The notes under the pieces: generated by a model
The model's database searches: none
The model's input: the letters and a program-made list of their open reading frames with translations, nothing else
Told to the model about the DNA's origin: nothing
Program-made: the position numbers and the translations under genes
In this document: piece by piece, positions 6,714 to 22,684 of the stretch
Layout: every line of letters starts with the position of its first letter
Position numbering within the stretch: position 1 is the first letter of the stretch
Assembly (NCBI RefSeq): GCF_018327705.1
Contig: NZ_BNEM01000001.1
Span: 4,278,001-4,342,000, forward strand
Source of the DNA: Catellatospora sp. TT07R-123
GTDB taxonomy: Bacteria > Actinomycetota > Actinomycetes > Mycobacteriales > Micromonosporaceae
Direction of reading: 5' to 3'
DNA length: 64,000 bases

Positions 6714-7576
6714 CGGCGCCAGCTGGGCGTACGCCCGAGCCAGGCGGCCAGCCGCTCGTCGTACGGCCGGAAGTGCTCCTCCAGCCGCTGCTTCAGCTCG
6801 TCCGACATCGGGGTGCGCGAGCGGGCGTTGTGCTGGTCGTGCACGATGCCGGCCACGTCCGGGATGTCGAGGAACCGGCAGACCTCGGCGAACGCCGGCT
6901 GCGGCTCGGCGAAGTAGTCCTCGCTGTCGATCACGAGCAGCCGCTCGCGGCCGACCAGCGACTCCAGGTGCAGCAGCTGGTCGATGTACTCGCCCCGGCC
7001 GAGGTGGGCCAGGTGCCGTACCGCGTGGCTGTGGTAGCTCGGGTCGGCCTTCATCCGCTCCCGCTCACCGGCCATGCGCTGCGGCTCCAGCTCGACGGCG
7101 CGCTCGAAGGTCTCAGTCTCGAAGCCGCGGGCGTACTCGTGCGACCAGCCCGAGTAGGCACGGCCGACCGGGTCGCGCAGCAGCACGATGAGCTTCACGC
7201 CGGGCAGGTCCCGGGCGATGCGCTCCGGCGCCAGCGGGTGCCACATGTAGTAGGGGCTGGCCTCGCCGGTGATGACCCGGTGCCCGGAGGCCTGCTCCAG
7301 CCGGGCCGCCTTCGACCGGCTCGGGAAGTGGCCCTGGAACCAGCGGTGCCCGCGCTGGTAGTCCATGTCGAAGTAGTGCACGCCCTTGCGGAAGCGCGCC
7401 GGCAGGAACGACGGGTGCTGCACCAGCGCCTTGTGCAGCGACGTGGTGCCGCCCCGCTGGGTGCCCACGATCAGGAACGACGGGGTCATCCGCCGGTCCG
7501 CCGTCAACCGCCCCGCCGAGCGGGCCAGCACGCCCGCCTGATGCGACAGGATCTTCCGTACGCGGCTAGTCGCCAT
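6710..7576 (-). CDS. PAPS-dependent sulfotransferase
   Basis: The 288-residue protein shows the two cofactor-binding signatures of the sulfotransferase fold: a 5'-phosphosulfate loop GTQRGGTTSL at residues 38-47 and a 3'-phosphate motif VLLRDPVGRAYSGW at 131-144. It should move sulfate from PAPS to an acceptor hydroxyl. Because it lies inside an EPS operon between a kinase-like gene and the flippase, the acceptor is probably the lipid-linked oligosaccharide. I chose the ATG at 7576, which has GGAGG nearby and overlaps the previous gene by 11 bp; an in-frame start farther upstream at 7702 would bury it in that gene. A second sulfotransferase domain occurs at 13805-15361. Confidence 0.87.
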   Translation of the reverse strand: MATSRVRKILSHQAGVLARSAGRLTADRRMTPSFLIVGTQRGGTTSLHKALVQHPSFLPARFRKGVHYFDMDYQRGHRWFQGHFPSRSKAARLEQASGHRVITGEASPYYMWHPLAPERIARDLPGVKLIVLLRDPVGRAYSGWSHEYARGFETETFERAVELEPQRMAGERERMKADPSYHSHAVRHLAHLGRGEYIDQLLHLESLVGRERLLVIDSEDYFAEPQPAFAEVCRFLDIPDVAGIVHDQHNARSRTPMSDELKQRLEEHFRPYDERLAAWLGRTPSWRR

Positions 7577-8795
7577 CGTTTTCCTCCCCCACCTGGCTCT
7601 GCCCCGCCAGAGCCGCCCAGTCTTCTCCCAGTCCGGCCAGCGCCGGCCTGATCCACTCGTCCACCCGGCCCATCGGCGTGCCGAAGCCGTCCTGCCGGTC
7701 ACCGAGATAGCGGCTGCCGATCTCGGTGAAGTACAGCGCCGCCACCGCGGGGGCGACGTCGGCGTCGACCCCGAACGGCGCCAGCAGCGCGCCCGCGCGG
7801 GCGGCCACGTCGGCCGCGGCGACCGCCGGGACCGCGCCGTGCACGGTGACCGCCTCGTGCAGCTCGAAGTGCAGCACGTCGTAGCCGACCGGCACGTCGG
7901 CGGTGAACCGCTCGAAGTCCCACAGCAGCACCTCGCCGCCGCGGATCGACATGTTGCCGCCGTTCCAGTCGCCGTGCCAGCAGCCGTACGACAGCTCGGC
8001 GCCGGCGCAGGCGGCCAGCACGGCCCGCATCAGGTGCGCGGCGGGACGCTCGCCCAGCGCGTCGACCTGCGCGGCCAGCCGGGCGGCGTACGAGCCGCCG
8101 CCGAAGCGGCCGGTGGTCACGCCGTGCACCCGCGCCAGCGAGCGCATCGCGGCGACGGTGCCCTCGGCCGGGTCGAGCTGCGCGCCCGCCCCGCGGCCCC
8201 AGACCGGCAGCGCCTTCATGACCAGCAGCTGGGCATCGCCCCAGGTGCCGAAGTGCAGCAGCTCGGGGATGCGCGCGGGGGCGAGGTCGCGGCCGGACAG
8301 CGCGGCCAGGGCGGCGTGCTCGTCGCGGATCAGCCTGGTGGTCAGCTCGTTCACGCCGACCTTGGCGTACGCGACGGTGTGCGCCTGCGCGTCGATGAGC
8401 TGGAGCACCGGCTTGCGGTTGGCGCGGGGCGGCCCGAACCGCACGCTCATGCGCACCGGCGTGCCGACCACCTCGCTCAGGTGCTCGGCCAGCGTGCCGC
8501 CGCGGCGGACCGCGACCTGGTCCCGGAAGACCAGGCCGCCGACGCCCGTGGCGAAGACACCGGAGAGCACGCGCTGGCGCAGCCGGTCCTTGGCCGAGCG
8601 GGGCGCGCTGGTGTGGCTGATCGCCGCGCTCGCGGCGCGCCGGTCGCCGTGCGGCACCAGCAGCCGGGGCGATCCCGCGTTGGGGACCACGGTGTAGGTC
8701 TCGGCCGCACCGGGCGCGCCGCGGCCGACGAAGACGTCGCCGGAGGAGTCGCCGCCCAGCAGGCGGCCTAGTTCGTGCAGGTAGCTGCTGCTCAC
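7566..8795 (-). CDS. APH/choline-kinase-like phosphotransferase of the EPS operon
   Basis: The 409-residue protein belongs to the aminoglycoside phosphotransferase-like kinase fold. The catalytic loop HGDWNGGN is at residues 274-281 (Asp276, Asn281) and the metal-binding LLWDFERF follows at 289-296 (Asp293), so the active-site residues are present. The N-terminal lobe is divergent but has AYAKVGVNE, a possible lysine-bearing strand. No membrane segment is seen. The likely role is to phosphorylate a small molecule or glycan precursor for the polymer; antibiotic resistance is less likely in this setting. The start is a GTG at 8795 that overlaps the polymerase stop as GTGA. Confidence 0.75.
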   Translation of the reverse strand: MSSSYLHELGRLLGGDSSGDVFVGRGAPGAAETYTVVPNAGSPRLLVPHGDRRAASAAISHTSAPRSAKDRLRQRVLSGVFATGVGGLVFRDQVAVRRGGTLAEHLSEVVGTPVRMSVRFGPPRANRKPVLQLIDAQAHTVAYAKVGVNELTTRLIRDEHAALAALSGRDLAPARIPELLHFGTWGDAQLLVMKALPVWGRGAGAQLDPAEGTVAAMRSLARVHGVTTGRFGGGSYAARLAAQVDALGERPAAHLMRAVLAACAGAELSYGCWHGDWNGGNMSIRGGEVLLWDFERFTADVPVGYDVLHFELHEAVTVHGAVPAVAAADVAARAGALLAPFGVDADVAPAVAALYFTEIGSRYLGDRQDGFGTPMGRVDEWIRPALAGLGEDWAALAGQSQVGEENDGD

Positions 8796-10225
8796 CGATA
8801 CGCCTTCGTCGTCTCGTTGCGCCACATCAGGCCCAGTCCGGCCATCATGATCACCAGGGTCATGCCGCCGGAGTTGTAGATCGTCATGAACCACAGCGCC
8901 AGCGGGGCGACCAGCCCGCCTGCGATGCCGATCCAGGAGTGCTCGCGCCGGAACCGCCAGCCCATCCACGCGAAGAACAGGATGTACAGGCCGGCGCCGA
9001 CGAACCCCTGCGTGACCAGCAGCGACCAGAGCTGGCCGTCGCTGCCGATGTCGCGGTTGCCGCACTGCTCGCAGCTCGCGCTCTGGCCGATCGCGATCGA
9101 GCGCTCACTGCCGATGGTCTCCGCCTGCCCGCCGTACCCGATGATCGGCGAGCCCCAGGCGGCGGTGACCGCCGCGCCGTTGAGCGAGGCCCGGCCCTCG
9201 TTGGAGTGCGGGGTGTTGATGCGCTCCATCACCGTGGTGCCCAGCGGGGTGGTCAGCGTGACGATGCCGACCAGGGCGACGCCGACCATGACGCCGACGA
9301 CCGGCAGGATGCTGCCGCGGATCGCCAGCCGCACGGTCAGGTACGCCACCGCCAGCCCCAGCCCGAGCCACATGCCCCGGTTGAGCGAGAACACCGTCGG
9401 CACCATCGACAGCACCAGCACGCCGATCGCCCAGAACCGCCGCCACAGCGACTTGGTGCGGTGCAGCGCGGCGATGAGGAACCAGGGCAGCAGCAGCACC
9501 AGGCACTGGCCCCAGGTGTTCGTGTACTGGAACGGCGCGGCCGGACGCGGCCGGGGCGCCTCCTCCAGGATGCTCTGCCACTGCGACAGCTCGATCTTGA
9601 CCGACGAGCGGACGAAGCCGTTGTTGATCAGGAACTTCGGCAGCACCTCGGCCAGCGGCGTGGTGATCGCGAAGCGCGGCAGCACCATGCCGGCCAGGCC
9701 GCCGATGACCAGCACCACGAACAGCGTGGCCAGCATCTTCACGACGCGCTTGGTGGGCAGCTCCCGCTCGGTGAGGTTGCCGATGTACAGCAGCACCACC
9801 CCGGCCGCGGCCAGGTCGGACATGCGCTGCGCGTACGCCAGGAACCGGCCGAGGCCCATCTCCGGCGCCAGCGCGTGCGGCGGCGTGGCACCGAGCATGG
9901 TGGCGCTGACCAGCCCGAGGAACAGCAGCAGCGCCCACAGCGCGAACGGGCCGGGCATCTTGACCCGGCCGCGCCGCAGCAGCTCCAGCGCCATCGGGAC
10001 CGCCAGCAGCGGGATCCAGACCAGCGTCAGGCCGAGCAGCCAGCCGACCGGGTACAGCACGATCATGGCGAACAGCGCCCACTCACGCAGCGGCATCGGA
10101 TCGCGCTGCCGGCGGCGGTAGCCGAGCAGCGGCGGCGGGGCCAGCGCGCGCGGCGGCGCCGCCGCCACCCCGCGGATCGACGACGGCTCCGACTCGGGCG
10201 TGCGCAGGGGTGAAGCAGTGGTCAC
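8792..10225 (-). CDS. O-antigen ligase/polymerase-like membrane protein (Wzy-type)
   Basis: The 477-residue protein has about 11-12 membrane segments and a large extracytoplasmic loop between roughly residues 175 and 230, the usual topology of O-antigen ligase/Wzy polymerases. FSLNRGMWLG at mid-length resembles the conserved arginine-containing segment of the PF04932-type domain. It should polymerise lipid-linked repeat units outside the membrane. It overlaps both operon neighbours by 4 bp. Since the locus also holds a flippase and a chain-length-type protein, a polymerase role is favoured over ligase. Confidence 0.83.
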   Translation of the reverse strand: MTTASPLRTPESEPSSIRGVAAAPPRALAPPPLLGYRRRQRDPMPLREWALFAMIVLYPVGWLLGLTLVWIPLLAVPMALELLRRGRVKMPGPFALWALLLFLGLVSATMLGATPPHALAPEMGLGRFLAYAQRMSDLAAAGVVLLYIGNLTERELPTKRVVKMLATLFVVLVIGGLAGMVLPRFAITTPLAEVLPKFLINNGFVRSSVKIELSQWQSILEEAPRPRPAAPFQYTNTWGQCLVLLLPWFLIAALHRTKSLWRRFWAIGVLVLSMVPTVFSLNRGMWLGLGLAVAYLTVRLAIRGSILPVVGVMVGVALVGIVTLTTPLGTTVMERINTPHSNEGRASLNGAAVTAAWGSPIIGYGGQAETIGSERSIAIGQSASCEQCGNRDIGSDGQLWSLLVTQGFVGAGLYILFFAWMGWRFRREHSWIGIAGGLVAPLALWFMTIYNSGGMTLVIMMAGLGLMWRNETTKAYR

Positions 10226-11229
10226 GACACGGTCACCTTCGCGGCGGCAGGCAGCAGCAGCACCCAGGTCGGTCCGGTGGCCAGCCGCACCAGCGACTCC
10301 GCCGGGCCCAGCAGGTTGAGCGCCGAGTCCAGGCCGCCGACCTTGCTCCAGGTGCCGGTGACGGACTGCCCGGCGCCGAAGACGCGCACCGCGCCGGTCC
10401 CGGCCGGATCGGGCAGCGACACGGTCCGGTGCAGGGCGTTGACCGCCTTCTGCTTGTACGGCACGGTCAGCAGCACCAGGTTGGCCGCCGCGACCGGCAC
10501 CCCGCCGACGGTGGTCTGCCAGCGCCTGGTGGTCTGGTCGAAGCGCCAGGTCAGGGCCGCGTGCCCGGCCACCTGCACGGTGACCGACGCGGCCGGTTCG
10601 AGCCCGGTCGCCGACAGCGACTCGCCCCGCTGGGCGTACTGGAACAGCGGGGCGGGCAGTGCGGCCGCCGAGGGGGCGGGCGCCTGAAGGCTCGCGGCGT
10701 TCGCGTACGTACGGCCGGAGGCGGTGGTGAACGCCGCCTTGCGGCTGGCGGGGGTGCCCGAGGCCAGGTTCGTGGACTTCAGCGTGTCCAGCCAGCCCTG
10801 CGCCACCGTGTGGTCGTGGGCGACGAACGGGCGCAGCTGGTTGAACAGCTTCAGATCACCCGGGCGCACCGCCGCGACCGGGCCGACCTTGGTGGCGGCC
10901 TGCGACTGGTACACCCCGACCGCGCGCAGCAGGCTGCCCTCGGCGAAGTCCAGCCCGACCAGGTCGGCCAGGTCCAGCCCGACCGGCGCGGCGGCGCCGG
11001 TGCCGACCTCGATCGGCACCAGCACCGAGGTCTTGGCCGCCGTCGCCTCATCGGTCTCGGCCCCGGTCAGCGGGGCCCTGGGCAGCAGCGGCGAGGGGGA
11101 GGGCAGGCTGAAGGAGGGCCGGGCGCTGGGGGCGTCGCCGGCCTTGGTCGGGTCGTCGATCGAGCAGCCTGAGGCCAGGAACGCGACGGCGGCCAAGGCG
11201 CCGGCGTACGCCCGCAGCGTCCGGCTCAT
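10222..11229 (-). CDS. DUF3048/YerB-like lipoprotein of the EPS operon
   Basis: The 335-residue protein carries a lipobox (FLASGC, Cys22) and should be anchored on the outer face of the membrane. The N-terminal domain (VLVPIEVGTG, GPVAAVRPGDLKL) and the C-terminal domain (NLVLLTVPYK, VTGTWSKVG, WVLLLP) resemble the two-part DUF3048/YerB architecture; the match is moderate. Function in that family is unknown. Its position between the Wzz-like protein and the polymerase suggests a part in polymer export or length control. The start ATG overlaps the Wzz-like stop, and its stop overlaps the polymerase start. Confidence 0.65.
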   Translation of the reverse strand: MSRTLRAYAGALAAVAFLASGCSIDDPTKAGDAPSARPSFSLPSPSPLLPRAPLTGAETDEATAAKTSVLVPIEVGTGAAAPVGLDLADLVGLDFAEGSLLRAVGVYQSQAATKVGPVAAVRPGDLKLFNQLRPFVAHDHTVAQGWLDTLKSTNLASGTPASRKAAFTTASGRTYANAASLQAPAPSAAALPAPLFQYAQRGESLSATGLEPAASVTVQVAGHAALTWRFDQTTRRWQTTVGGVPVAAANLVLLTVPYKQKAVNALHRTVSLPDPAGTGAVRVFGAGQSVTGTWSKVGGLDSALNLLGPAESLVRLATGPTWVLLLPAAAKVTVS

Positions 11230-12971
11230 CGCGCGTCGGCCGAGGACTGGCCCGAGCCGCCGCGGCGCTTGGTGCCGGTGGGCTGCGTGCCGATGGGCTG
11301 GGTGTCGTTCTCGTCCGCGCCGGGCTGCCAGAAGGCGATCGGCTCGAACTCCTCCGACGCGGCCGGGACCCGGTCCATCACCATCGTCATGTCGTGGTCG
11401 CGTGCCGGGGGCAGCTGGACCGGCTGCGGTGCGGTCAGCTGCGGTGCCGCGGCCGGAGCCTGGCGGAACTTGCGGCTGTTGCGGGCCGAGCGCGGATTGC
11501 GCACCACCAGCAGGCCCGCCAGCGGGCCCTGGACCCGGGCGATCTGCTCGATCGAGGCCTCGACGTCACCGATGCGGGCGGCGCGGGTCTCGACGACCAG
11601 CAGCACCGCCGCGGCGATCTCGCTGAGCGCCTGCGCGTCGACGGCGTGGCTCGGCGGCGCCGTGGCCACCAGCACCCGGTCGGCCCGCTCCTGGATCTCG
11701 CCGAGCAGCTGGGAGACCACGGCGACGGGCAGCTCGACGCGCGGGTCGAGGTGGCCCGGGGTGAGCAGCGAGACGTTGTGGATCGTCGAGACCTTGGTCA
11801 GCGCCCGGTCCAGGTCGGCGGTGCCGGCGATGACGTCGCCGAGGCCGACGGACGGGTTGACGCCGAGCAGGCCCGGCAGGAACGACTGCGGGTCGGTGCA
11901 GACCACGACCACGCGCTCGCCGGAGCGGGCGAACGCGGCGGCCAGGTTCGCCACGACGAACTCGACCGCGCCGCCGCGGGCGGCGCCGCAGATGAGCAGC
12001 GCGTCGGTCGGCGAGGGGCGGCCGCCGCGGACCGTGCCCGCCGCGACGCGCAGCGTGTTGCGCAGCAGGCTGAACTCGCGGCCCAGATGGCTGGCCGCGT
12101 CGGCGACCGTCACCTTGTCCCGGTTGCGCTGCAGCTCCAGCAGGATCGGCACGTCGACGAGGTACGGCAGCTGGCGGCTGTTGTAGATGCGGCTGTCCAG
12201 GCGGTCGAGCACGAGCGCGCCGGCCAGGCCGAGCAGCAGGCCGATGGCGACACCGCTGATCAGGTACAGCTTGAGGTCCGGTTTGGCCGGGGAGTCGGGC
12301 CTGTTGGCAGCAGAAAGGATATTGCCCGGTTTGACCACCGAAGCCAGCAGCGGGATCATGCGGGTGTTCATGGTGTTGATCTGCTGCGTGAGGATCTGCT
12401 GCTGCTGCACCGCCTGCTGGCGGTCGACCGAGTTGTTCGGCAGGGCGGCGATGCGGCCCGCGACGTCGTTCAGCTGCTTGGTCAGGCCGGAGATGTCGTC
12501 CTTGAGCGAGGCGGTCTGCTGCTCGATGCTCTTGGTCGCGTCGGCCGCGCGCTGGTCCAGGTATGCCTGCGCGAACGCCTGCGAGCCCGCCTGGGCCTCG
12601 CTCGCCGTCGGCGCCTCGAACGCGATCGCCAGCACCGAGGTGTTGGCGGGCACGGTGACCGTGGTCCGCTCGACCAGCTGGTCTACCGGCGTCGAACTGC
12701 CGAGCAGGTGCTGCGCGGCCTCGCCGACGGTGGTGGAGCGCACGACCTGGGACTCGGTGTCGAGGTTCACCTTGACGGAGGTGTCGAGGCCGACCTGGAG
12801 CACCAGCACCTTGGTCTCGGAGACGTAGACCTTCTCCTGGGTGGCGGCGACCACGAGGCCGCCCACGCCGCCCACGAACACGGTGAACGCGACCAGCCAC
12901 CACCGGCGCACCAGCCAGCCGACGTAGTCACCGATGGATGCCGACTGCACCGAGGGTGAATTACTTGCCAT
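11226..12971 (-). CDS. Wzz-type chain-length protein with degenerate BY-kinase domain
   Basis: The 581-residue protein has the polysaccharide co-polymerase layout: membrane helix 24-44, an extracytoplasmic Wzz domain with a coiled-coil stretch near 140-205, a second helix 233-255, and a cytoplasmic CpsD-like domain from about 290. The nucleotide site is degenerate. The Walker A position reads CGAARGGAVE (328-337) with no Lys-Ser/Thr, the Walker B-like position reads RVLVATAPP without the usual Asp, and the C-terminal tail has no tyrosine. It is therefore predicted to be a pseudokinase. The ATG at 12971 follows GGGGAG. It is the first gene of the seven-gene operon and probably sets chain length. 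Confidence 0.85.
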   Translation of the reverse strand: MASNSPSVQSASIGDYVGWLVRRWWLVAFTVFVGGVGGLVVAATQEKVYVSETKVLVLQVGLDTSVKVNLDTESQVVRSTTVGEAAQHLLGSSTPVDQLVERTTVTVPANTSVLAIAFEAPTASEAQAGSQAFAQAYLDQRAADATKSIEQQTASLKDDISGLTKQLNDVAGRIAALPNNSVDRQQAVQQQQILTQQINTMNTRMIPLLASVVKPGNILSAANRPDSPAKPDLKLYLISGVAIGLLLGLAGALVLDRLDSRIYNSRQLPYLVDVPILLELQRNRDKVTVADAASHLGREFSLLRNTLRVAAGTVRGGRPSPTDALLICGAARGGAVEFVVANLAAAFARSGERVVVVCTDPQSFLPGLLGVNPSVGLGDVIAGTADLDRALTKVSTIHNVSLLTPGHLDPRVELPVAVVSQLLGEIQERADRVLVATAPPSHAVDAQALSEIAAAVLLVVETRAARIGDVEASIEQIARVQGPLAGLLVVRNPRSARNSRKFRQAPAAAPQLTAPQPVQLPPARDHDMTMVMDRVPAASEEFEPIAFWQPGADENDTQPIGTQPTGTKRRGGSGQSSADAR

Positions 12972-13337
12972 GTGCTCCCCTTGTTCACAACCTGTTGACA
13001 CTCGGCCGTCGATGTCCGGCGCGGCTGCGAGTGGCCACACGCAGGCGGTCATCCTAGGTAGACAGGGTTTCACGCTAGTCACCGGCTTGCATCACCCGGT
13101 CAGCCAAACGGCCACTTCTGTTCAGACCGGAGTTATTGGACGCGGCAGTGGCGGTTGACACGGTCGATTCCGCCATCATCCGAACAGATCGCCCGCCGGT
13201 TAAACCGCAGGTCATGCCCTGGTGACCGAAATACGTACTGGCAGAAGGTGTTCGATGTCGGTCTACCGACAGTACACCGAGGCGAAATGTTAAAAGGTGC
13301 CGTTAAGCTGCGGTCGTCTCTGGGAGAGGAAACTGGG
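12972..13337. promoter_or_regulatory. Divergent EPS promoter region
   Basis: This 366-bp gap separates the minus-strand and plus-strand EPS operons and holds no convincing gene. It is less GC-rich than its surroundings, especially at 13100-13310. An operator-like inverted repeat, TGTCGGT-CT-ACCGACA, lies at 13256-13271, upstream of the Alg14-like gene. An in-frame ATG at 13287 would lengthen that protein by 17 residues but lacks family support. Confidence 0.5.
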
Positions 13338-13808
13338 ATGGCCGAACGAAAACACGCCCGACACGTCCTTCTGGTCGGTTCGTCCGGTGGCCACCTCGCG
13401 CAGCTGTACGCGTTGCAGCCGTGGTGGACCGACCGGGCCCGCACCTGGGTCACCTTCCCCACACCCGACGCGCACAGCCTGCTGGCTGAGGAGAATGTCG
13501 TCTACGCCCACTATCCGACGACTCGCAACATTCCCAACCTCCTGCGCAACTTCCTGCTGGCGTTCGGCGTGATGCGGCGCACCCGGCCCGACGCGGTCAT
13601 CACGACCGGCGCCGGGGTCGCGCTGCCCTTCTTCGTGCTGGCCAAGCTGCGGCGCATCCCCACGGTGTACATCGAGGTGTACGACCGGCTGGAGACCCGC
13701 ACGCTGACCGCGCGGCTGTGCCGCCCCTTCACCTCGCGCATGCTGGTGCAGTTCACCCAGCAGCTGTCCCTCTACAAGGGATCGACGCTGGTGGGGCCGC
13801 TGCTGTGA
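13338..13808 (+). CDS. Alg14/PssD-like glycosyltransferase subunit
   Basis: The 156-residue protein matches the membrane-associated Alg14-type half of split GT28-family transferases. It has the N-terminal VLLVGSSGGHLAQLYAL motif, TTGAGVALPF and a conserved IEVYDR segment. In rhizobial PssD/PssE and eukaryotic Alg14/Alg13, this subunit recruits the catalytic partner to the membrane and binds the lipid acceptor. The catalytic partner is the next gene, which starts at a GTG overlapping this stop (GTGA). The ATG at 13338 follows GAGAGGA. The likely product is a lipid-linked disaccharide in the EPS pathway. Confidence 0.82.
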   Translation: MAERKHARHVLLVGSSGGHLAQLYALQPWWTDRARTWVTFPTPDAHSLLAEENVVYAHYPTTRNIPNLLRNFLLAFGVMRRTRPDAVITTGAGVALPFFVLAKLRRIPTVYIEVYDRLETRTLTARLCRPFTSRMLVQFTQQLSLYKGSTLVGPLL

Positions 13809-15361
13809 CCGCGCCCGACATCCGCACCCAGCACCTGACCGTCCCGGCGCCCCGGCGGCACGAAAGCACCCAGACCGGACGCGCACCGCTGCTCGTCGTG
13901 GTCGGCACCGACGTGCACCCGTTCGACCGGCTGCTGAACTGGACCGCCCGCTGGGCCGAGGAGAACGGCGTGCCCTGCGTCATGCAGTACGGCTCGTCCA
14001 CTCCGCGTGATCTGCCCGGCTCGTCCGCCTTCTTCGACCACGCCACGCTCGGTACGCGGCTGCGCGAGGCCGGGCTCGTGGTCTGCCACGGCGGCCCGGC
14101 GACCATCACCGAGGCCCGCCGCGCCGGGCACATCCCGGTCGTGGTGCCGCGCGACCCGACCCTCGGCGAGCACGTCGACGACCACCAGCAGCGCTTCGCC
14201 GCCCACATGGGCGAGGCGGGCATGGTCCGGCTGTGCCGCACCGAGGAGTCGCTGCGCGCGGTGCTCGACGCCGCCCTGGTCGAGCCCGAGGCGCTGCGGC
14301 TGGACACCGCCGAGGCCGGTGCCGAGTCGGCCGCCGCCGTGCGGCGCGTGGGCGACATCATCGACTCGCTGGCGGCCCGCCTGCCCAGCCGGCACTCGGC
14401 CGACGACGTGCGGGTGCTGTTCATCGGCGGCTGGGGGCGCAGCGGCTCCACGCTGACCGACCGGCTGCTCGGGCAGGCGCCCGACGTGTGCGCGGTCGGC
14501 GAGGTGACCCACACCTGGGAGCGGGCGCTGCGCGACAACGAGCGCTGCGGCTGCGGCGTGCGGTTCCGCGACTGCGACTTCTGGGGCAAGGTGGGCGAGG
14601 TCGCGTACGGCGGCTGGGACACCCTCGACGTGGAGCAGGTGCTCGCGCTCAAGCACCGGGTCGACCGGATGCGGTTCGTGGCGCGGCTGGCGCTGCCGTT
14701 CTGGGCCACCCGCCGCAAGAACGACCTGCGCACGTACGGCGAACTGCACCGCAAGCTGTACCGGGCGGTGGCCGAGGTGTCCGGCACCTCGGTGGTGGTC
14801 GACTCCAGCAAGCACGCCTCGCTGGCGTTCGCGCTGCGCCACGCCCGCGGCATCGACTTCCGGGTGCTGCACCTGGTGCGCGACGGCCGCGCGGTGGCGT
14901 ACTCGTGGAGCCGCGAGGTGCTGCGGCCGGAGATCGTCGACGCCGAGGTGTACATGCCGACGTACTCGACGGTCAGCTCGGGCCTGCACTGGCTGGTGCA
15001 CAACGCGCTGTTCCACCTGCTCGACTGGGTGGGCACCCCCGTGCTGCGGATGAGGTACGAGGACTTCATCGCCTCCCCGGCCGACAGCCTGCGCCGCATC
15101 CGCGGCTTCGCCGACCTGCCCACCGGGAAGATGGACCTGCTCGACCGCCCCGCCGCCACCGCCGAGGGGCTGCCCACGGCGCAGCTGGCCGCGACGCACA
15201 CCGTCGCGGGCAACCCGATGCGCTTCACCACGGGTTCGGTGACGCTGCGGCTCGACGCCGCCTGGCGGGCCAAGCTCGCCGCCCGCAAGCGCCGCGTGCT
15301 CAGCCTGATCACCTGGCCGCTCCGCGCCCGCTACGGCTACCTGGACTGGAGAAAGAAATGA
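13805..15361 (+). CDS. Alg13/PssE-like glycosyltransferase fused to a sulfotransferase
   Basis: This 518-residue protein joins two enzymes. Residues 28-190 form a GT28 C-terminal, Alg13-like catalytic domain with the nucleotide-sugar motif VVCHGGPATITEA (92-104). Residues 203-440 form a sulfotransferase domain with a phosphosulfate loop GGWGRSGST (208-216), VVDSSKH (331-337) and the 3'-phosphate motif HLVRDGRAVAYSWSR (356-370). The reading frame is continuous with uniform high-GC codon use, so this is a real fusion and not a frameshift artefact. It probably adds a sugar to the lipid carrier with the Alg14-like partner and sulfates the product. It overlaps the GT2 gene by 4 bp. Confidence 0.85.
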   Translation: MTAPDIRTQHLTVPAPRRHESTQTGRAPLLVVVGTDVHPFDRLLNWTARWAEENGVPCVMQYGSSTPRDLPGSSAFFDHATLGTRLREAGLVVCHGGPATITEARRAGHIPVVVPRDPTLGEHVDDHQQRFAAHMGEAGMVRLCRTEESLRAVLDAALVEPEALRLDTAEAGAESAAAVRRVGDIIDSLAARLPSRHSADDVRVLFIGGWGRSGSTLTDRLLGQAPDVCAVGEVTHTWERALRDNERCGCGVRFRDCDFWGKVGEVAYGGWDTLDVEQVLALKHRVDRMRFVARLALPFWATRRKNDLRTYGELHRKLYRAVAEVSGTSVVVDSSKHASLAFALRHARGIDFRVLHLVRDGRAVAYSWSREVLRPEIVDAEVYMPTYSTVSSGLHWLVHNALFHLLDWVGTPVLRMRYEDFIASPADSLRRIRGFADLPTGKMDLLDRPAATAEGLPTAQLAATHTVAGNPMRFTTGSVTLRLDAAWRAKLAARKRRVLSLITWPLRARYGYLDWRKK

Positions 15362-16269
15362 CCGCCAAGGTCTCGGTGGTGGTGCCCACCCGCAACCGGC
15401 CCGAGCTGCTGGCCAAGGCCCTCGACGCCATCCTCGGGCAGGAGTACCCCGGCCCGATCGAGGTGATCGTGGTCTTCGACCAGAGCGAGCCCGACCTGTC
15501 GCTGCGCCGTGACGACCCGCACCGCGAGGTGCGCGTCATCACCAACGCGCGCACCCAGGGCCTGGCCGGCGGTCGCAACACCGGCATCGGCGCGGCCACC
15601 GGCGAGCTGGTGGCGTTCTGCGACGACGACGACGAGTGGCTGCCCGGCAAGCTCGCCGCGCAGGTGGCGCTGCTGGACGCCCGGCCGGAGTCGGAGCTGT
15701 GCTGCATCGGCGTGGTCATCGACTACGACGGCCGCGACGTGGAGCGGACCCTCGGCAAGGACAGCATCACGCTGCCGGACCTGCTGCGCGACCGGCTGAC
15801 CGAGCTGCACCCGTCGACGTTCCTGTTCCGGCGCGCCGCGCTGGTCGACGGGATCGGCCTGGTCGACGAGAACATCCCGGGCAGCTACGCCGAGGATTAC
15901 GAGCTGCTGCTGCGCGCGGCGCGGCGGGCCCCGATCGCCAACGCGCCGGGCGCGCTGGTGCGGGTGCGCTGGCACCGGCAGTCGTACTTCACCGCGCGCT
16001 GGGCGACGATCGCCGAGGCGCTGCAGTGGCTGCTGGAGCGGTACCCGGAGTTCGACAGCGCGCCGCGCGGGCACGCCCGCATCACCGGGCAGATCGCGTT
16101 CGCGCAGGCCGCGGGTGGGCACCGCAAGGACGCCATCCGGTGGGTACGCAAGACGATCCGGCACAGCCCGCGCGAGGCGCGCTCGTACCTGGCGCTCGCG
16201 GTGGCCACGCGGCTGGTCTCGGCCGATTCGGTGCTGCGCAAGCTGCACAAGCGCGGCCGCGGCATCTGA
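15358..16269 (+). CDS. GT2 family glycosyltransferase
   Basis: The 303-residue protein is a GT-A fold family 2 transferase. It begins VSVVVPTRNRPELL, has GLAGGRNTGI and a CDDDDEWLPGK metal-binding block near residues 88-98, and a later GSYAEDYELLLRA segment that matches the acceptor/base region. It likely adds a sugar during assembly of the lipid-linked EPS unit on the cytoplasmic side. The ATG at 15358 overlaps the fusion protein's stop. It is the last gene of the plus-strand EPS operon, and a strong hairpin follows. Confidence 0.88.
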   Translation: MTAKVSVVVPTRNRPELLAKALDAILGQEYPGPIEVIVVFDQSEPDLSLRRDDPHREVRVITNARTQGLAGGRNTGIGAATGELVAFCDDDDEWLPGKLAAQVALLDARPESELCCIGVVIDYDGRDVERTLGKDSITLPDLLRDRLTELHPSTFLFRRAALVDGIGLVDENIPGSYAEDYELLLRAARRAPIANAPGALVRVRWHRQSYFTARWATIAEALQWLLERYPEFDSAPRGHARITGQIAFAQAAGGHRKDAIRWVRKTIRHSPREARSYLALAVATRLVSADSVLRKLHKRGRGI

Positions 16270-16326: not shown

Positions 16327-17967
16327 TCACCGGTCGCAGAAGTCGCGCCACGCCCGCTGCGAGACCGCGTCCCGCAGGCGGAAGTCCGCCGTCGACCAGT
16401 TGATGTCGAAATACGTGATCCATAGGGCCTTGCCAGCGATCGCCTTGCTCGCCATCGAGGTGAGCCAGGCCGCCCGGCCGCTGCCGGAGTCGCCGGTGAT
16501 CTTCGCGCTGCCCATCTCGGCGATGCCCCACGGCTTCTTCTCCCCGTCGGAGATCGCCTGCACCCGGCCGACCAGGTCGTCGGCGCTGGTGTACTTCTTC
16601 TTGTCCCAGTTGTAGACGTCCCAGCCGAGCACGTCGATGACGTCGCCGCCCGCGTAGTAGTCGCGCCACTTGCGGCCCGACTGCGACATCAGGGTCCAGT
16701 CCATCAGGACCAGCGTGGCGTGCAGCTTCGGGTTGCCCGCCTGGTCGGCCAGGCCCGCCAGGCGGCGCCAGGCCGCCCGGTAGTCGGCCGCGGTGAAGAC
16801 GCCGGACTCGATGTTGTCCTCGGGCTCGTGGTAGTAGACCCAGTACACGTCGCGGTCGCGCGGCGCGTTGGCGAACCAGCTGCGCAGGTACGAGTCGCGC
16901 GAGCCGTTCAGGATGTCCTTGGGCGAGTACTTGAACGACACGATGACGGTGCGCTTGGCGTTGCCGGCGCTGCCCGGCCAGTTGGCCGGCGCACCGGGGT
17001 AGAACACCCGGGCCGCCTCCATACCGCCGAAGTAGCCGTCCTCGCGCGCCAGCGCCTGCGTGTACGACTCGCCGTTCTCCTGGTAGAAGGAGGCGCCGCA
17101 CAGGGTGCTGCCGGTCGGCAGGTCGGGCGGCGTCCCGCTGCCCGCCGACGGGGTGGCCCCGGGCGAGGCGGACGGGTCGAGCGACGCCCCGGGCGACGGG
17201 GTGCCCGACGGCTTGCCGCTGGGCCCCGGGCTCTCGCGGCCCTGGACGGCCTCGCGCATCTCCCGCTCGGTCGCGGTCGACTCGATGTACGTCACCTCCA
17301 GCACCGCCCGGCCCTCACCGTGCTCCCCGGCGTAGAGGGTGAGCGGCTTGCTGTCGCTGGCGTTGGTGACCGCGAAGGAGTACTGCGTCGCGGTCGGGAC
17401 CGGCTGGGCCAGCGGCCCGATCGCGCCGTCGACGTTGAAGGTGAGCAGGTTGGCCTCGGAGACGGCCGGGTTCTCGTTGAGCACCTGGCCCAGACCGGGG
17501 CGGTGCGCGTAGGCGAGGTCCTTCTCGGTCCAGTCGCTGGACAGCACGGTGCGCACCTTCACGTGGCCCGGCGGCTTGCCCTCGGCCTGCACCAGCAGCG
17601 ACATGGCGGCGATGCGGTAGCCGGCCGGGATGGGCACGTCGAACTTGAGGTACGACACGGCGTAGTAGTCGGGCTTGGAGACGGCGACCAGCTTGTCCTC
17701 GGCACCGAAGACGTTGTCCGGCTGCTCGCGTACGACGTACGTGTCCTCACTGACCTTGATCTTCAAGGTCGTCGTCGCGGGCGGGTCGTCCCCGCCTGTC
17801 ACGAGCACCACCACCGCGGTGCCGATGAGCGCCACGCCGACGACGGTCGCCGCGATCGCCGCCACGAGCATCCGGCCGCGCGGCAGTCGCGCGGGCCGGC
17901 GTCGCTGCGGCCGACGTAAGCTCCGCGGCGGGGGCGCGTTTCGAAGGGTCCGGTCTGTATAGGCCAC
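16327..17967 (-). CDS. Membrane-anchored DNRLRE + GH26-like glycoside hydrolase
   Basis: The 546-residue protein has an arginine-rich cytoplasmic N-terminus and one membrane helix (about 33-56). A DNRLRE/CBM96-like beta-sandwich follows (about 68-230; SEDTYVVREQPDNVFG, YLKFDV), then a Pro/Ser/Gly linker (245-285) and a catalytic domain (290-546). Candidate catalytic residues are Glu381 in WVYYHEPED and Glu484 in WGIAEMGS, the GH26-like arrangement. It probably acts on the cell's own exopolysaccharide. I chose the GTG at 17967 because GGAG lies 7 bp upstream. It borders the EPS locus opposite the related lipoprotein at 4069-5082. The substrate is unknown. Confidence 0.78.
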   Translation of the reverse strand: MAYTDRTLRNAPPPRSLRRPQRRRPARLPRGRMLVAAIAATVVGVALIGTAVVVLVTGGDDPPATTTLKIKVSEDTYVVREQPDNVFGAEDKLVAVSKPDYYAVSYLKFDVPIPAGYRIAAMSLLVQAEGKPPGHVKVRTVLSSDWTEKDLAYAHRPGLGQVLNENPAVSEANLLTFNVDGAIGPLAQPVPTATQYSFAVTNASDSKPLTLYAGEHGEGRAVLEVTYIESTATEREMREAVQGRESPGPSGKPSGTPSPGASLDPSASPGATPSAGSGTPPDLPTGSTLCGASFYQENGESYTQALAREDGYFGGMEAARVFYPGAPANWPGSAGNAKRTVIVSFKYSPKDILNGSRDSYLRSWFANAPRDRDVYWVYYHEPEDNIESGVFTAADYRAAWRRLAGLADQAGNPKLHATLVLMDWTLMSQSGRKWRDYYAGGDVIDVLGWDVYNWDKKKYTSADDLVGRVQAISDGEKKPWGIAEMGSAKITGDSGSGRAAWLTSMASKAIAGKALWITYFDINWSTADFRLRDAVSQRAWRDFCDR

Positions 17968-18133
17968 GGTCAGACTCCGAGCATTTCCAGCGGCAGGCGC
18001 CGCGTTGAGGGATGGTGCACGGCAGCCTTGTGCGGCGCCACCGCGGATGAGCACCCGCAGCGCGCCGCACAGTTCACCACCGATTGTCGATCACGCATTC
18101 GTGACCGTTGATCGAAATCGCTTCCGATCAGTG

Positions 18134-19453
18134 CTACGGCAATGGGAAGAAGGCGATCCTTCCATGGAACTCGCCATGAACTGTATCGGTGTCGCTGGCT
18201 ATCCACAGTCCGGACGCCGTCGCGTAGATGTCCTCGGTGCCCACACCCCGGTCCTTGCCCGGGTTCCAGGCCAGGGCCTTGCCGGTCGCCGGGTTGATCG
18301 CGCCGACACCCTCGGCGGGGACGGCCCCCGGACCCGCGTCGTTGTGCCCCTGCGGGTTGTCCAGCCAGCGCTGGTGGCCGCCCACGTAGACGGCGGCGCC
18401 GGCCACCGCGACCGACAGCAGCGTGTCGCGGCCGGTGTAGTTGACCCAGGTCGGCTGCTTGCCCGAGGTCGCGGTGCCGAAGTCCCAGCGGGCCGCGGTG
18501 TCGCACAGCGCGCCGGTGCGCCCGCCGCCGCTGGTCACCACGGCGAACCAGGTGCCGTCGGCGGAGATGTCGACGCCCCGCAGGTACGTCGGGAACGTGT
18601 CCAGGCACTGCTCGCGGTAGCGGATGGTGGTCCACGGCGACAGCGTCGCGGCCGCGCCGGTGAGGTTGACCACGGCGATCTGCTCGCGCAGCTGGCCCGC
18701 GACCCGGCTGAAGTTGCCGATGATCACCAGGCGGGTGCCGTCGGGCGTCACGTCCAGGCCGGTCACCTTGATCGCCGAGGTGACCCCGGCGGTGGTGACC
18801 CGGGCGACGTCCACGTTGACGTTCAGGAAGTCGTCGCGGGCGCCGGTGGCGGCGTTCAGCGCGGCCAGGGCGCGCCGGGTGGCCCCGCCGACGGTCTGGA
18901 ACCTGCCGCCGATGATGAGCCGGTTGCCCGACAGCTTCATGTCGTCGACGCCGCCCGCGATGTCCGGGACGGTGAAGCCCGCCCAGGAGGCGCCGGTGGC
19001 CGCGTTGACGCGTTCCACGCCGCGCGAGCGCACGCCGTTGACGTTGGTGAAGTCGCCCGCGATGTAGAGCGACTGCCCGTCCGGCGCCGCGGCCAGCGCG
19101 CGCACCGCACCGTCGACCACCGGCTTGAAGGTGGTGTCGAGGGCGCCCGTGGTGGCGTTGAAGGCGAACAGGCGGCGCTGCGTGGTCACGGTGCCCGAGT
19201 TGGACGGCCGGACCGAGTTGAACGAGCCGCCGACGTAGACGCGGTTGCCGATGGCGAGGATCTTGTAGGCCGTGCCGTCGAGGGCGTGCGGCGTCCAGTT
19301 GACCGGGTCCTGCCCGACCAGCCTGGTGTGTTGCGCCGACACGGCCGAGGCGGAGGCGCCCAGGGCGACCGCGACCAGCGTCGTCACCGAGGTGAGCGCG
19401 GCGAGCGCGAGGCGCCGCCGACGCCCGTGGCGTACCAGTGAGAACCCAGACAT
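18134..19453 (-). CDS. Secreted delta-60-type beta-propeller protein
   Basis: The 439-residue protein has an Arg-rich N-terminus and a signal peptide (hydrophobic 14-35, likely cut near SAVSA). The rest is a chain of strand-rich repeats of the delta-60/PQQ-like kind, for example VYVGGSFNSV, LYIAGDFTNV, LIIGGRFQTV, LVIIGNFSRV and VYVGGHQRW. Such proteins form beta-propellers at the cell surface and are thought to bind ligands. Function is unknown. It is clearly paralogous to the N-terminal half of the next protein (19695-22259). The gene lies downstream of that one on the same strand, separated by a terminator. Confidence 0.75.
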   Translation of the reverse strand: MSGFSLVRHGRRRRLALAALTSVTTLVAVALGASASAVSAQHTRLVGQDPVNWTPHALDGTAYKILAIGNRVYVGGSFNSVRPSNSGTVTTQRRLFAFNATTGALDTTFKPVVDGAVRALAAAPDGQSLYIAGDFTNVNGVRSRGVERVNAATGASWAGFTVPDIAGGVDDMKLSGNRLIIGGRFQTVGGATRRALAALNAATGARDDFLNVNVDVARVTTAGVTSAIKVTGLDVTPDGTRLVIIGNFSRVAGQLREQIAVVNLTGAAATLSPWTTIRYREQCLDTFPTYLRGVDISADGTWFAVVTSGGGRTGALCDTAARWDFGTATSGKQPTWVNYTGRDTLLSVAVAGAAVYVGGHQRWLDNPQGHNDAGPGAVPAEGVGAINPATGKALAWNPGKDRGVGTEDIYATASGLWIASDTDTVHGEFHGRIAFFPLP

Positions 19454-19642
19454 GGTTCGGATGCTGCCAGTTCACAGATGTTAAGGCTGTCGCCGAACCG
19501 ACCCGGGAGCTGCCGTAACCATTGCCGCAAAAAGGGACTAGCTGCACAAACTGGGACACCAAATAGGACTATAAGCCGCACACTGCGCCGAAAGTCGGCC
19601 GGATGGACCGGTTCCGGCGGCCCGGTCGGGTCCGGAAACGTG

Positions 19643-19674
19643 CCGGACCGGCCACCAGGTGGTGGCCGGTCCGG
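19643..19674 (-). terminator. Terminator hairpin after the malectin protein gene
   Basis: A perfect 14-bp stem pairs CCGGACCGGCCACC (19643-19656) with GGTGGCCGGTCCGG (19661-19674) around AGGT. It lies 20 bp past the stop of the large propeller protein on the minus strand. Confidence 0.75.
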
Positions 19675-19694
19675 TTACTACGTCAGGTGCTGCG

Positions 19695-22259
19695 TCAGCC
19701 GCGGATGAACGCGCCCGGCGAACGCCAGTCGACCCCGTCGATCGCCGGGCCGCTGACCGCGACCGCGGAACCGCTGAAGGCCGTACCGTCGAACGCCCGC
19801 TTGATCAGGCGGCTGTCCGGCGCGCTGCGCGACCAGTACGCGTACCCGCCGGAGATGAACAGCACCCCGGAGGTGTTGGTCAGGTTCTCCAGCGCGCTGG
19901 TCGTGCCGCTGCCCGCGATCGAGAAGCGCTGCGACCCGGCGATGCCGCTGTCCGGGCTGAACCAGCGCCAGAACAGGTTGTTCGACCCGGCGATGGTGTA
20001 GAAGAGCTTCCCGTTCAGGAAGAACATGCTGCGCACGTTCGGCAGCTCGGTGTAGAGGTTGGTCTTCACCCCGGCGTACGTGACGCTGGTGGTGTCCTTC
20101 TCGTCCACCGGCACCGTGTCCCAGTACGGGTTCGAGTGCGGGTTGAGCAGCGTCGCCGGACCGAAGTTGGTGCCGTCGAACGTCCGGACGTACATGTTGC
20201 TGTCGGACATGCCGTAGAACAGCTTGTTGCCGACCAGGAACGCGCCACGCAGGTTCGCCCACACCGTGCCGTCGGCGCCGCCGACCGCGGTGAGCGCACC
20301 GGCCACGGTGCCGTTGTACGACCGCTTCGCCACACCGCTGCCGGTGCCGGCGCTGGTACGGATGATCTCGATCGCCTCGACGCCCGGGTTCTGCACCACG
20401 TGCGTGAAGTCGATGTTGACCGTGCCGTCGCTGGTCACCGGGAAGGCCAGCTTGTGGCCCACCTTGTAACCGACCTGCGCCACCGTGTCGTAGTCGTCGG
20501 CGACCAGGGTGCCGTCGATGCTGATGTCGAAGGTCCGGTCACCGGGCAGGTGGTAGAGCCAGTCCCGCGCGACGAAGTAGAGGCGGACCTCCACCTGCGT
20601 CCCGGCGGTGACCGGGAACGACCAGCTCATCTCCGGTGCGGCCGCGGCGTCGTACCGCTGGTCGTTGAAGACCTCCAGCGGGGTGCTGGCCGCCACGGAG
20701 CCGTCCAGCGAGATCGCGTTCGACGTGATCGAGTTAACCGAGCTGCCCGTGTTGTGGTACGTGCTCGGCGCCGCAGCGGTGTCCGCGGACCAGGGCAGCA
20801 GCCCGTCGTTGGCAGCCACCTCGGGACCGCCGGCGTTGACGCGGAACAGCACGTCGTTGGCCGGGATGCTCACCGTGTTGTTCGGGAAGAACACGTCGGT
20901 CGGCAGGTCGCCCACCGTCCAGGACGGCGGCGTGTAGCCACCGGCCAGCGGGAAGTACGCGATCCGGCCCCGCTTGTACTCGAAGTTGCCGATGTACTCG
21001 GTGTCGGAGCCGACGTAGAGGCCGTCCTCGGTGGCGTACAGCGCCGAGGCGCCGATGCCGCGCGGGTGGCGGCCGGGGTTCCACGCCTGCGGAACGCCGT
21101 TGACCGGCTCCAGCGCGGCCAGGCCGGGACGGGCCACGGCACCCTGGCGGGCCCGGTCGGCACCGTCGCTGTTGTTCATCCAGCGCTCGTGGCCGCCGAC
21201 GTACACCGAGGCGCCGGTGATCGCCACCGACAGCAGGGTGTCGCCACCGGTCCAGTCGACCCAGGTCGGCTGGAGGTTGGTGCCGGTCGCCGACGTCTCC
21301 CAGCGGGAGGCGCTGTCGCACAGCACCGTGTTGCCGTACGGCCCACCGGTGTTGACGACGACGAAGTAGGTGCCGTCCGGCGAGATGTCGACGTCGCGGA
21401 CCCACTTGTCGAACGCGTTGCGGCTGCACACGTCGTCGAACCGGTTGGTGTGCCAGTTGGCGATGGTGGCGGTCGGCCCGGTCAGGTCGAGCATGACGAC
21501 CTGGTCGTAGTCGCCGCCGTTGGCCGTCTTGAAGTTGCCGATGACGACGGCCTTGGTGCCGTCCGGGGTGATGTCCAGGTCGGTCGCGCCGACCGCGGAG
21601 TTGGCCCCGGTGCCGTTGTAGTTGTGGTGCCCGGTCAGCGAGATGTTCGCGTACGGGTCGTAGGCGCCCGTGGCCGCGTCCAGCGTCACCAGGCCGTTGC
21701 GGGTGATGACCTCAGTGGCGGTCGTCACGGTCGTGAAGAAGCCACCGACCAGCAGCCGGTTGCCGAACTGCTTGACCGTGTTCACCGCGCCGTTCAGCGA
21801 CGGCGCCTTGAACGAGTTCACCACCGAGCCGTCGGTCGTGTTGAGCAGCACCAGCCGGCTCCAGCCACCCGCCTGGACACCGGTGAACCGGCCGCCCACG
21901 TAGATGGTGTTCGGGGCCGGGCCCGGCATCACCTGAACGACCTCGTCGTTGATGTTCGGGCTAAACGCCGGATCCACCAGACCGGTGGTGGCGTCGAACG
22001 CGAACAGCCACGGCTTGGCGTACACCGTTCCGGTGCCGCGGTCGGTCACGCCCGTGAACGTGCCACCGGCGAACACCTTGTTGCCCACCTTGAGGATGGT
22101 GTTGACGGTGCCGTCGTTGATGTTCGGGGTCGCCGTCGACGGCACCGCCGACGGCAGGCCGGTGTGCACCGGCTGGACCGCCTGCGCTGGACCGATGCCA
22201 AGTAGCGTGATGGCCAGGGCGGACAGCCCTGCCACCGAGGTGCGACTAAGCCTTCGCAC
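19695..22259 (-). CDS. Secreted delta-60 propeller protein with malectin domain
   Basis: The 854-residue protein starts with a signal peptide (MRRLSRTSVAGLSALAITLL, likely cut after AQA near residue 27). Residues 30-460 are delta-60-type propeller repeats (VFAGGTFTGV, IYVGGRFTGV, LLVGGFFTTV). Residues about 470-625 match a malectin domain (FRVNAGGPEV, VRLYFVARDW, FDISIDGTLV), a fold that binds carbohydrate. The C-terminal 220 residues form another strand-rich region with FDGT repeats. A surface carbohydrate-binding role linked to the neighbouring EPS genes is likely. The GTG at 22259 follows GGGAG and gives an exact signal peptide. The N-terminal half is paralogous to 18134-19453. Confidence 0.8.
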   Translation of the reverse strand: MRRLSRTSVAGLSALAITLLGIGPAQAVQPVHTGLPSAVPSTATPNINDGTVNTILKVGNKVFAGGTFTGVTDRGTGTVYAKPWLFAFDATTGLVDPAFSPNINDEVVQVMPGPAPNTIYVGGRFTGVQAGGWSRLVLLNTTDGSVVNSFKAPSLNGAVNTVKQFGNRLLVGGFFTTVTTATEVITRNGLVTLDAATGAYDPYANISLTGHHNYNGTGANSAVGATDLDITPDGTKAVVIGNFKTANGGDYDQVVMLDLTGPTATIANWHTNRFDDVCSRNAFDKWVRDVDISPDGTYFVVVNTGGPYGNTVLCDSASRWETSATGTNLQPTWVDWTGGDTLLSVAITGASVYVGGHERWMNNSDGADRARQGAVARPGLAALEPVNGVPQAWNPGRHPRGIGASALYATEDGLYVGSDTEYIGNFEYKRGRIAYFPLAGGYTPPSWTVGDLPTDVFFPNNTVSIPANDVLFRVNAGGPEVAANDGLLPWSADTAAAPSTYHNTGSSVNSITSNAISLDGSVAASTPLEVFNDQRYDAAAAPEMSWSFPVTAGTQVEVRLYFVARDWLYHLPGDRTFDISIDGTLVADDYDTVAQVGYKVGHKLAFPVTSDGTVNIDFTHVVQNPGVEAIEIIRTSAGTGSGVAKRSYNGTVAGALTAVGGADGTVWANLRGAFLVGNKLFYGMSDSNMYVRTFDGTNFGPATLLNPHSNPYWDTVPVDEKDTTSVTYAGVKTNLYTELPNVRSMFFLNGKLFYTIAGSNNLFWRWFSPDSGIAGSQRFSIAGSGTTSALENLTNTSGVLFISGGYAYWSRSAPDSRLIKRAFDGTAFSGSAVAVSGPAIDGVDWRSPGAFIRG

Positions 22260-22684
22260 AGTTTTCTCCCACCCAGCACATAGAAAGGGGTCGGCGTCGG
22301 CCGACCAACGCCCAAACGCGACCAGGCTCGCGGGGCGGCAAACGCTAAACCTGAAGCTTCCGTTAGCACGCTGCGGCAGGCAAGAGGGAGTGCGGCAATG
22401 TGACTGTTCGGCCGAGCCGCGCACACCACCCCGGTCTGCCTGGCCATATGATCGCCATCTTGCGACAGGCCGCCGGTCGTCCGAGGTCAGGCACCTGTCG
22501 TCGTGACGCGCACAACAGCCATTCCCGCTATCGACTCCACGACAGTGAACCGTCGTGCGAGCCGTCTCGAAAGGGCTGTCAGCATAGCGCCGACCCCGCC
22601 TCTATCGTCTAATTCGGAATCGCGTGGGCGCAGACTTGCGAAAACGCGGCAGAAATCGATTTACGGGAGGGCTTTGCGACCGTA
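22260..22684. other. 425-bp intergenic region
   Basis: The gap between the malectin protein start and the ispF stop holds no open reading frame with actinobacterial codon bias. It should contain the promoter of the malectin protein gene near 22260-22400 and the 3' end of the ispF transcript. The 22580-22680 stretch is relatively AT-rich. I see no clear terminator hairpin. Confidence 0.4.

Follow-up and report, generated by a model that had tools for sequence, protein, structure and literature searches.

The fusion gene and its gene cluster

The window, a stretch of 64,000 nucleotides (4278001-4342000 of contig 1) from the 9.17 Mb genome of Catellatospora sp. TT07R-123, carries on its forward strand a gene at 13805-15361 that forms a single open frame of 518 residues with zero internal stops and joins a PssE/Alg13-like glycosyltransferase domain to a sulfotransferase domain. 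The first part (residues 28-192, 13886-14380) is a GT-B donor-binding, or GT28 C-terminal, domain with its C-terminal helix; it scores 45.8 bits against Glyco_tran_28_C of Pfam (cut-off 22), with the best stretch at residues 81-171, and contains the motifs HGGPATITEARRAG (14087-14128) and GEHVDDHQQRF (14165-14197). The second part (residues 199-518, 14399-15358) passes the Pfam gathering score of Sulfotransfer_3 from residue 205 (42.4 bits, cut-off 27) and falls narrowly under that of Sulfotransfer_1 (21.4 bits, cut-off 22). The motifs read from the forward-strand sequence of this part are a 5'-PSB-like GGWGRSGST (14426-14452), a GE after the P-loop (14498-14503), a CGCG...C module (14546-14575), DSSK (within DSSKH, 14801-14812) and a 3'-PSB-like HLVRDGRAVAYSW (14870-14908), which includes VRDGRAVAYSW. 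The roles given here to the 5'-PSB, 3'-PSB and transferase motifs are those we presume from family knowledge. In the family profile the GE aligns with the GE of the tyrosylprotein sulfotransferases (TPST), the Glu of which we take to be the TPST catalytic base.

The preliminary description of this DNA had placed both domains in one continuous frame, next to an Alg14/PssD-like membrane partner. Both observations were confirmed, since the frame runs from one domain to the other without a stop or frameshift, both Pfam matches exceed their cut-offs, and the adjoining gene at 13338-13808 (forward strand, 156 residues) matches Alg14 (35.4 bits, Pfam cut-off 27) as the membrane-side, acceptor-binding half of such a glycosyltransferase. 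The pair is best called PssD/PssE-like and not the equivalog, because the scores in NCBIfam are 104.4 bits for PssD (cut-off 110) and 54.5 bits for PssE (equivalog cut-off 120); the WelK model gives 64.3 bits on the fusion (cut-off 400). The GTG start of the fusion at 13805 overlaps the stop of the PssD-like gene by four bases (GTGA, 13805-13808), and its stop overlaps by four bases (ATGA, 15358-15361) the ATG at 15358 of a GT2 glycosyltransferase gene (15358-16269, forward strand, Glycos_transf_2 95.3 bits). As read from the DNA, the overlaps at both ends are in the manner of translational coupling. Residues 181-206 include three in-frame GTG codons (182, 202 and 204), and no purine-rich site was found in the 18 bases 5' of them, so a separate second start for the sulfotransferase domain is predicted to be unlikely.

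The AlphaFold model of the fusion (mean pLDDT 87.5, pTM 0.64) has two well-folded domains, with a long helix at residues 168-192 directly before the sulfotransferase and a weak stretch near residues 193-201; given this pTM and the weak linker, the model does not fix how the two active sites are positioned to each other. Foldseek matched the first domain to UGT51 (E 7.9e-5), YjiC (6.5e-4) and MurG (2.0e-3). For the second, the best match was TPST1 (5wrj, E 1.5e-7), and heparan 3-OST-3 (6xkg, E 2.9e-5), TPST2 and bacterial sulfotransferases were also matched; as modelled, the C-terminal domain of the fusion has a sulfotransferase fold. Alg13 is reported to contact Alg14 through its C-terminal helix (PMC8993221).

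Together with the fusion, the surrounding genes form a Wzx/Wzy cluster for a surface polysaccharide that is probably sulfated. A priming sugar-1-phosphate transferase is encoded on the forward strand at 2500-4005 (Bac_transf 224.2 bits). It is followed on the reverse strand by a GH26-like glycoside hydrolase (4069-5082; Glyco_hydro_26 21.0 bits, cut-off 20.2, for 4072-5076, the start being set by eye at an ATG just beyond the scanned stretch), a Wzx-like flippase (5079-6713; MatE 31.9 bits, cut-off 24.9), a second, WpsH-like sulfotransferase (6710-7702; Sulfotransfer_1 56.2 bits, cut-off 22), a kinase-like, WpsI-like protein (7566-8795, GTG 8795 being the likely start; 38% identity to the homologue in this genome's wps-1-type cluster, Pfam match under the cut-off), a Wzy-like polymerase (8792-10225; Wzy_C 27.7 bits, under the cut-off of 31.7), a DUF3048 protein (10222-11229; 45.2 bits, cut-off 25) and a Wzz-like chain-length protein (11226-13082; Wzz 23.5 bits, under the cut-off of 25.5). 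The DUF3048 gene, flanked by those for Wzy and Wzz, is kept in eight clusters of the genus. Downstream, at 16327-22424, one encoded protein matches CBM96 and two large ones are related to each other, one of these matching a Rax2-like beta-propeller; the group stays with the cluster across the genus. The genome also has a predicted source of PAPS, a bifunctional ATP sulfurylase-APS kinase whose gene lies roughly 3 kb ahead of wzz in its wps-1-type cluster.

Fused and split forms in Actinomycetota

Eight of the 11 Catellatospora genomes carry the fusion at full length, with an intact frame in each and 71-100% identity when the own genome is included (71-94% across the others). Gene order is identical in all eight; the Wzx, second sulfotransferase, kinase-like, Wzy, DUF3048 and Wzz genes lie on one strand and PssD, the fusion and GT2 on the opposite one. 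The PssD-like gene was sought in the three genomes of the genus that lack the fusion (G002, G005 and G006) and gave no match, and the control genome (G001) was matched. Because the fused frame is kept across the genus and recurs elsewhere, we rejected a sequencing or assembly error or a chance frame as unlikely. That the fusion is special to Catellatospora was likewise ruled out, by fused loci in other lineages.

Altogether, 184 sequences, the window included, yielded at least 24 distinct fused loci of Actinomycetota; the counts are lower bounds because scoring in the class, phylum and family genome searches covered the top 3 to 5 candidates of each genome, and reading covered the loci delivered. 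The same 184 sequences hold 35 split rows (L055 giving two of them) and 57 PssE-like rows without an adjoining sulfotransferase of the fusion's type. In the class search, 8 of 394 genomes, counting the own genome, had a single place that matched almost the entire query; G329, one of the eight, has an N run. The phylum search (396 genomes) found the fusion in the own genome, G814, G922 and partly G932. In the named genomes, 12 of 79 loci are fused: six in Catellatospora, one in an Actinomycetota MAG and five of an Arthrobacter type, which include an Acidobacteria-labelled MAG. Nineteen of the 24 fused loci, that of the window among them, retain the RSG[ST]T motif; DSSK is present in 18 of these 19 and the 3' motif pattern fits 17, the exceptions being L136, one residue off, and L175, with no fit.

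The split counterpart was read in the best 22 loci outside the genus from a search of 300 genomes of the family, all 22 belonging to one other genus (g4), which is probably Micromonospora because named Micromonospora loci have the same gene order. Each of them has the order PssD, PssE, sulfotransferase, GT2, with PssE and sulfotransferase in different frames and a four-base stop/start overlap, ATGA or GTGA. The long open frames around these sulfotransferases could have been taken for another fusion, a possibility that was ruled out as the genes are separate. The preliminary description had looked to genomes with the two halves as separate genes of unrelated expression as evidence against its proposal. 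The halves do occur as separate genes, but in 22 of 22 loci these genes are neighbours with a four-base overlap. The constant overlap supports coupling, and a functional link between the PssE half and the sulfotransferase is well supported by these sequence comparisons.

The fused and split states were also placed on trees of each half. By parsimony, the fused label changes six times on the sulfotransferase tree, and well-supported branches make three of these changes unavoidable; the transferase tree also requires six, one of them forced. Both are quick trees with SH-aLRT support only and several long branches meeting, in which the clade with degenerate sulfotransferase domains (see below) was labelled apart. 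The transferase tree was reduced from 116 to 108 rows by taking out L055, which has an interrupted PssE frame, and fragments shorter than 110 residues, including L065. The sulfotransferase tree leaves out one of its two L055 rows, and its lone sulfotransferases were thinned to 50 of 53. On this evidence joining or splitting probably happened repeatedly, in a direction, gain or loss, that the trees do not tell.

Relation to known systems

The pair in the window resembles PssD/PssE, Cps14F/Cps14G, EpsE/EpsF, Alg14/Alg13 and the fused WelK/GelK-type enzymes in being a two-part GT-B enzyme with a membrane or acceptor half and a donor half. To our knowledge, no sulfotransferase is present on any known enzyme of these types. 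A sulfotransferase joined to a second polysaccharide enzyme is likewise found in the heparan N-deacetylase/N-sulfotransferase NDST (PMC10864358); the partner in NDST is a deacetylase, whereas that of our fusion is a glycosyltransferase subunit that, by kinship, would act on a lipid-linked sugar. No PssE-type glycosyltransferase-sulfotransferase fusion was found in the accessible portions of the open-access literature, including PMC4483657. As far as that search goes, the fusion brings known enzymes together in a combination that is new and that recurs.

Among the closest described systems is the wps-1 cluster (WpsA-K) of Actinoplanes missouriensis, whose authors propose that it makes a sulfated polysaccharide for the matrix of the sporangium (PMC13390465). 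Compared by these descriptions, wps-1 and the window have in common GT2, a sulfotransferase, GH26, Wzx, a second sulfotransferase, the kinase-like protein, Wzy and Wzz. Of this set, the window's Wzy and Wzz are under their cut-offs and its kinase-like member is assigned by homology to the wps-1-type locus of the same genome alone. The two clusters differ in that wps-1 has a GT26 (WpsC) where the window has PssD/PssE, and in that the window's sulfotransferase is fused to PssE. In the part of the frames that was scanned, the products of the window cluster include neither a GT26 nor a methyltransferase. By gene position and description, WpsB, which in wps-1 neighbours the GT26 enzyme, would correspond to the sulfotransferase of the fusion. 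Deletion of wpsA, wpsC or wpsH is reported to give squashed sporangia, and deletion of wpsB sporangia that are normal by SEM and a tenfold reduction in released spores; the authors count wpsB among the genes needed for normal sporangium formation (PMC13390465).

The genome studied here has a second, related cluster with two sulfotransferases, which by description is a close match to wps-1, at about 3.866-3.884 Mb of contig 1 (L014 and L164; ~3.87 Mb). Its order is Wzz, Wzy, kinase-like, second sulfotransferase, Wzx, methyltransferase-like (under Pfam cut-offs), GH26-like (frame set by eye), DUF402, GT26 (8095-8916 of L014), sulfotransferase and GT2; the DUF402 protein stands where, by description, wps-1 has WpsD, a DUF4262 protein. 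The sulfotransferase that adjoins GT26 is homologous to that of the fusion, with 48.9% identity over the matched part, and no PssD/PssE match was found in the 20 kb read. Because this homologue sits beside GT26, in a locus with no PssD/PssE match, its acceptor need not be a PssE-added sugar.

Sulfated polysaccharides have been reported from cyanobacteria (PMC8205485), Vibrio (PMC11641403) and Cobetia (PMC11766843), and a review refers to six bacterial genera (PMC11625862). The synechan (xss) cluster of Synechocystis and the Vibrio and Cobetia capsule clusters contain sulfotransferases, and PAPS genes lie in the latter two (PMC11641403, PMC11766843); the available parts of the three papers mention no sulfotransferase-glycosyltransferase fusion (PMC8205485, PMC11641403, PMC11766843).

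Proposed sulfation of a lipid-linked intermediate and its alternatives

We consider it somewhat probable that a sulfotransferase tethered to PssD/PssE sulfates a lipid-linked intermediate before flipping. The N-terminal domain of the fusion would pair with PssD as a two-subunit glycosyltransferase that adds a second sugar, at the cytoplasmic face, to a first sugar linked to lipid pyrophosphate. The C-terminal domain, as a putative PAPS-dependent carbohydrate sulfotransferase, would be held at the membrane via the contact of PssE with PssD and would act there on the lipid-linked oligosaccharide, most probably sulfating the newly made disaccharide. GT2 would then complete the unit, and Wzx would flip it. 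We infer the donor sugar, the acceptor, the order of steps, the membrane tethering and any kinetic coupling in this best explanation, and the sulfated sugar may be the priming, the PssE-added or the GT2-added one. The pairing of fused and split forms, the recurrence of the joined state, the motifs, the presence of a PAPS source and a joint placed directly after a helix of the Alg13-contact type all point to tethered sulfation.

It is possible, though unlikely, that tethering is the only consequence of the joint, the sulfotransferase being kept at the membrane complex to sulfate the priming sugar, a GT2-added sugar or the finished unit, uncoupled from PssE. The link could equally be to GT2, because 58 of the 67 PssE-adjoining sulfotransferase places, refetched duplicates included, also adjoin GT2, and the wps-1-type homologue works beside GT26 and GT2, not PssDE. 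Clusters of PssDE and GT2 also exist without this sulfotransferase, as in many Micromonospora loci (L068 type) with PssD, PssE and GT2 and no such sulfotransferase between. However, the fused loci L141, L142 and L165 keep the join to PssE though their GT2 gene lies on the other strand, and the joined state recurs. In the class and phylum loci, PssE adjoins 14 of 51 sulfotransferase places, and 34 of the 51 have no PssE match within the sequence retrieved, which mostly reached 1.5 kb to either side; in some of these genomes PssE is 2-4 kb off on the other strand. Together with the homologue beside GT26 and the many places that also adjoin GT2, such PssE-less places and the milder kind of the wpsB knockout weigh against a strict reading in which one and the same sugar is added and sulfated. 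The earlier proposal that a sugar is added and sulfated by the same enzyme claims more than these data support, given the homologue beside GT26 and the clade without PAPS motifs described next.

Five fused loci of one clade have a C-terminal part without the P-loop and the 3' motif, that is, without PAPS motifs, and with no Pfam sulfotransferase match at E 0.1. They come from Arthrobacter H14-L1, Arthrobacter Soil763, Paenarthrobacter DKR-5, an Arthrobacter MAG and an Acidobacteria-labelled MAG, and among five genomes of the H14-L1 genus two gave a match, H14-L1 included, which adds one more relative. These loci are a reason to weigh a non-catalytic role, in which the sulfotransferase domain mainly docks a partner or the acceptor for the transferase and sulfation is secondary or lost; we regard such a role as improbable for the fusion. 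It is consistent with the CxCG...C..FW..G...F.GW module, which the remnant shares with live enzymes, and with dN/dS values (NG86) that are lower in the remnant core than in the tail for L062-L185 (0.21 vs 0.46), L062-L083 (0.22 vs 0.67) and L083-L185 (0.25 vs 0.68). Because the core lies under the tail in these three of four pairs, the remnant looks constrained at the sequence level, more weakly than the transferase part, for which the computable values are 0.11 and 0.26. On the other side, core and tail are alike in L065-L078 (0.57 vs 0.56), dS is near or above 1 in this method, the AlphaFold model of the Arthrobacter-type protein (mean pLDDT 73) has zero sulfotransferases among the 50 PDB matches listed by Foldseek, and RSG[ST]T is intact in 19 fused loci, that of the window included. 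L062, L065, L066, L078, L083 and L185 each have PssE fused to a degenerate sulfotransferase domain that keeps the Cys-rich module without PAPS motifs. L066 is the Acidobacteria-labelled MAG, and its Arthrobacter-type cluster reflects either transfer or mis-binning.

The least probable account is a neutral one, in which two overlapping neighbour genes were fused without functional consequence: both forms are common and the four-base overlap of the split form means that a small frame change would join the halves, but the joined state recurs and is kept across 71-94% identity in Catellatospora.

Returning to tethered sulfation of the lipid-linked unit, a bolder version, which we regard as speculative and rather unlikely, is that the C-terminal domain acts as a built-in checkpoint, in which the unit is sulfated just as the sugar is added and no unsulfated intermediate proceeds, and that the Arthrobacter type is a pseudo-sulfotransferase still docking the acceptor or a partner. 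If true, the latter would represent a novel type of accessory domain in Alg13/PssE enzymes. How and when bacteria sulfate polysaccharides is poorly known, and in the Actinoplanes report the sulfated polysaccharides of actinomycetes are proposed only (PMC13390465). The natural fused, split and dead-domain versions provide a testable handle on sulfation of the lipid-linked unit before export, and the fusion is a possible tool toward defined sulfated glycans.

The number of sulfotransferases of the fusion's family varies between loci. In L168, L169 and L171, PssE is followed by two of them in tandem and then by GT2, and an extra one lies on the opposite strand just before PssD in L054 (6378-7292), L056 (6342-7280) and L057 (6340-7278).
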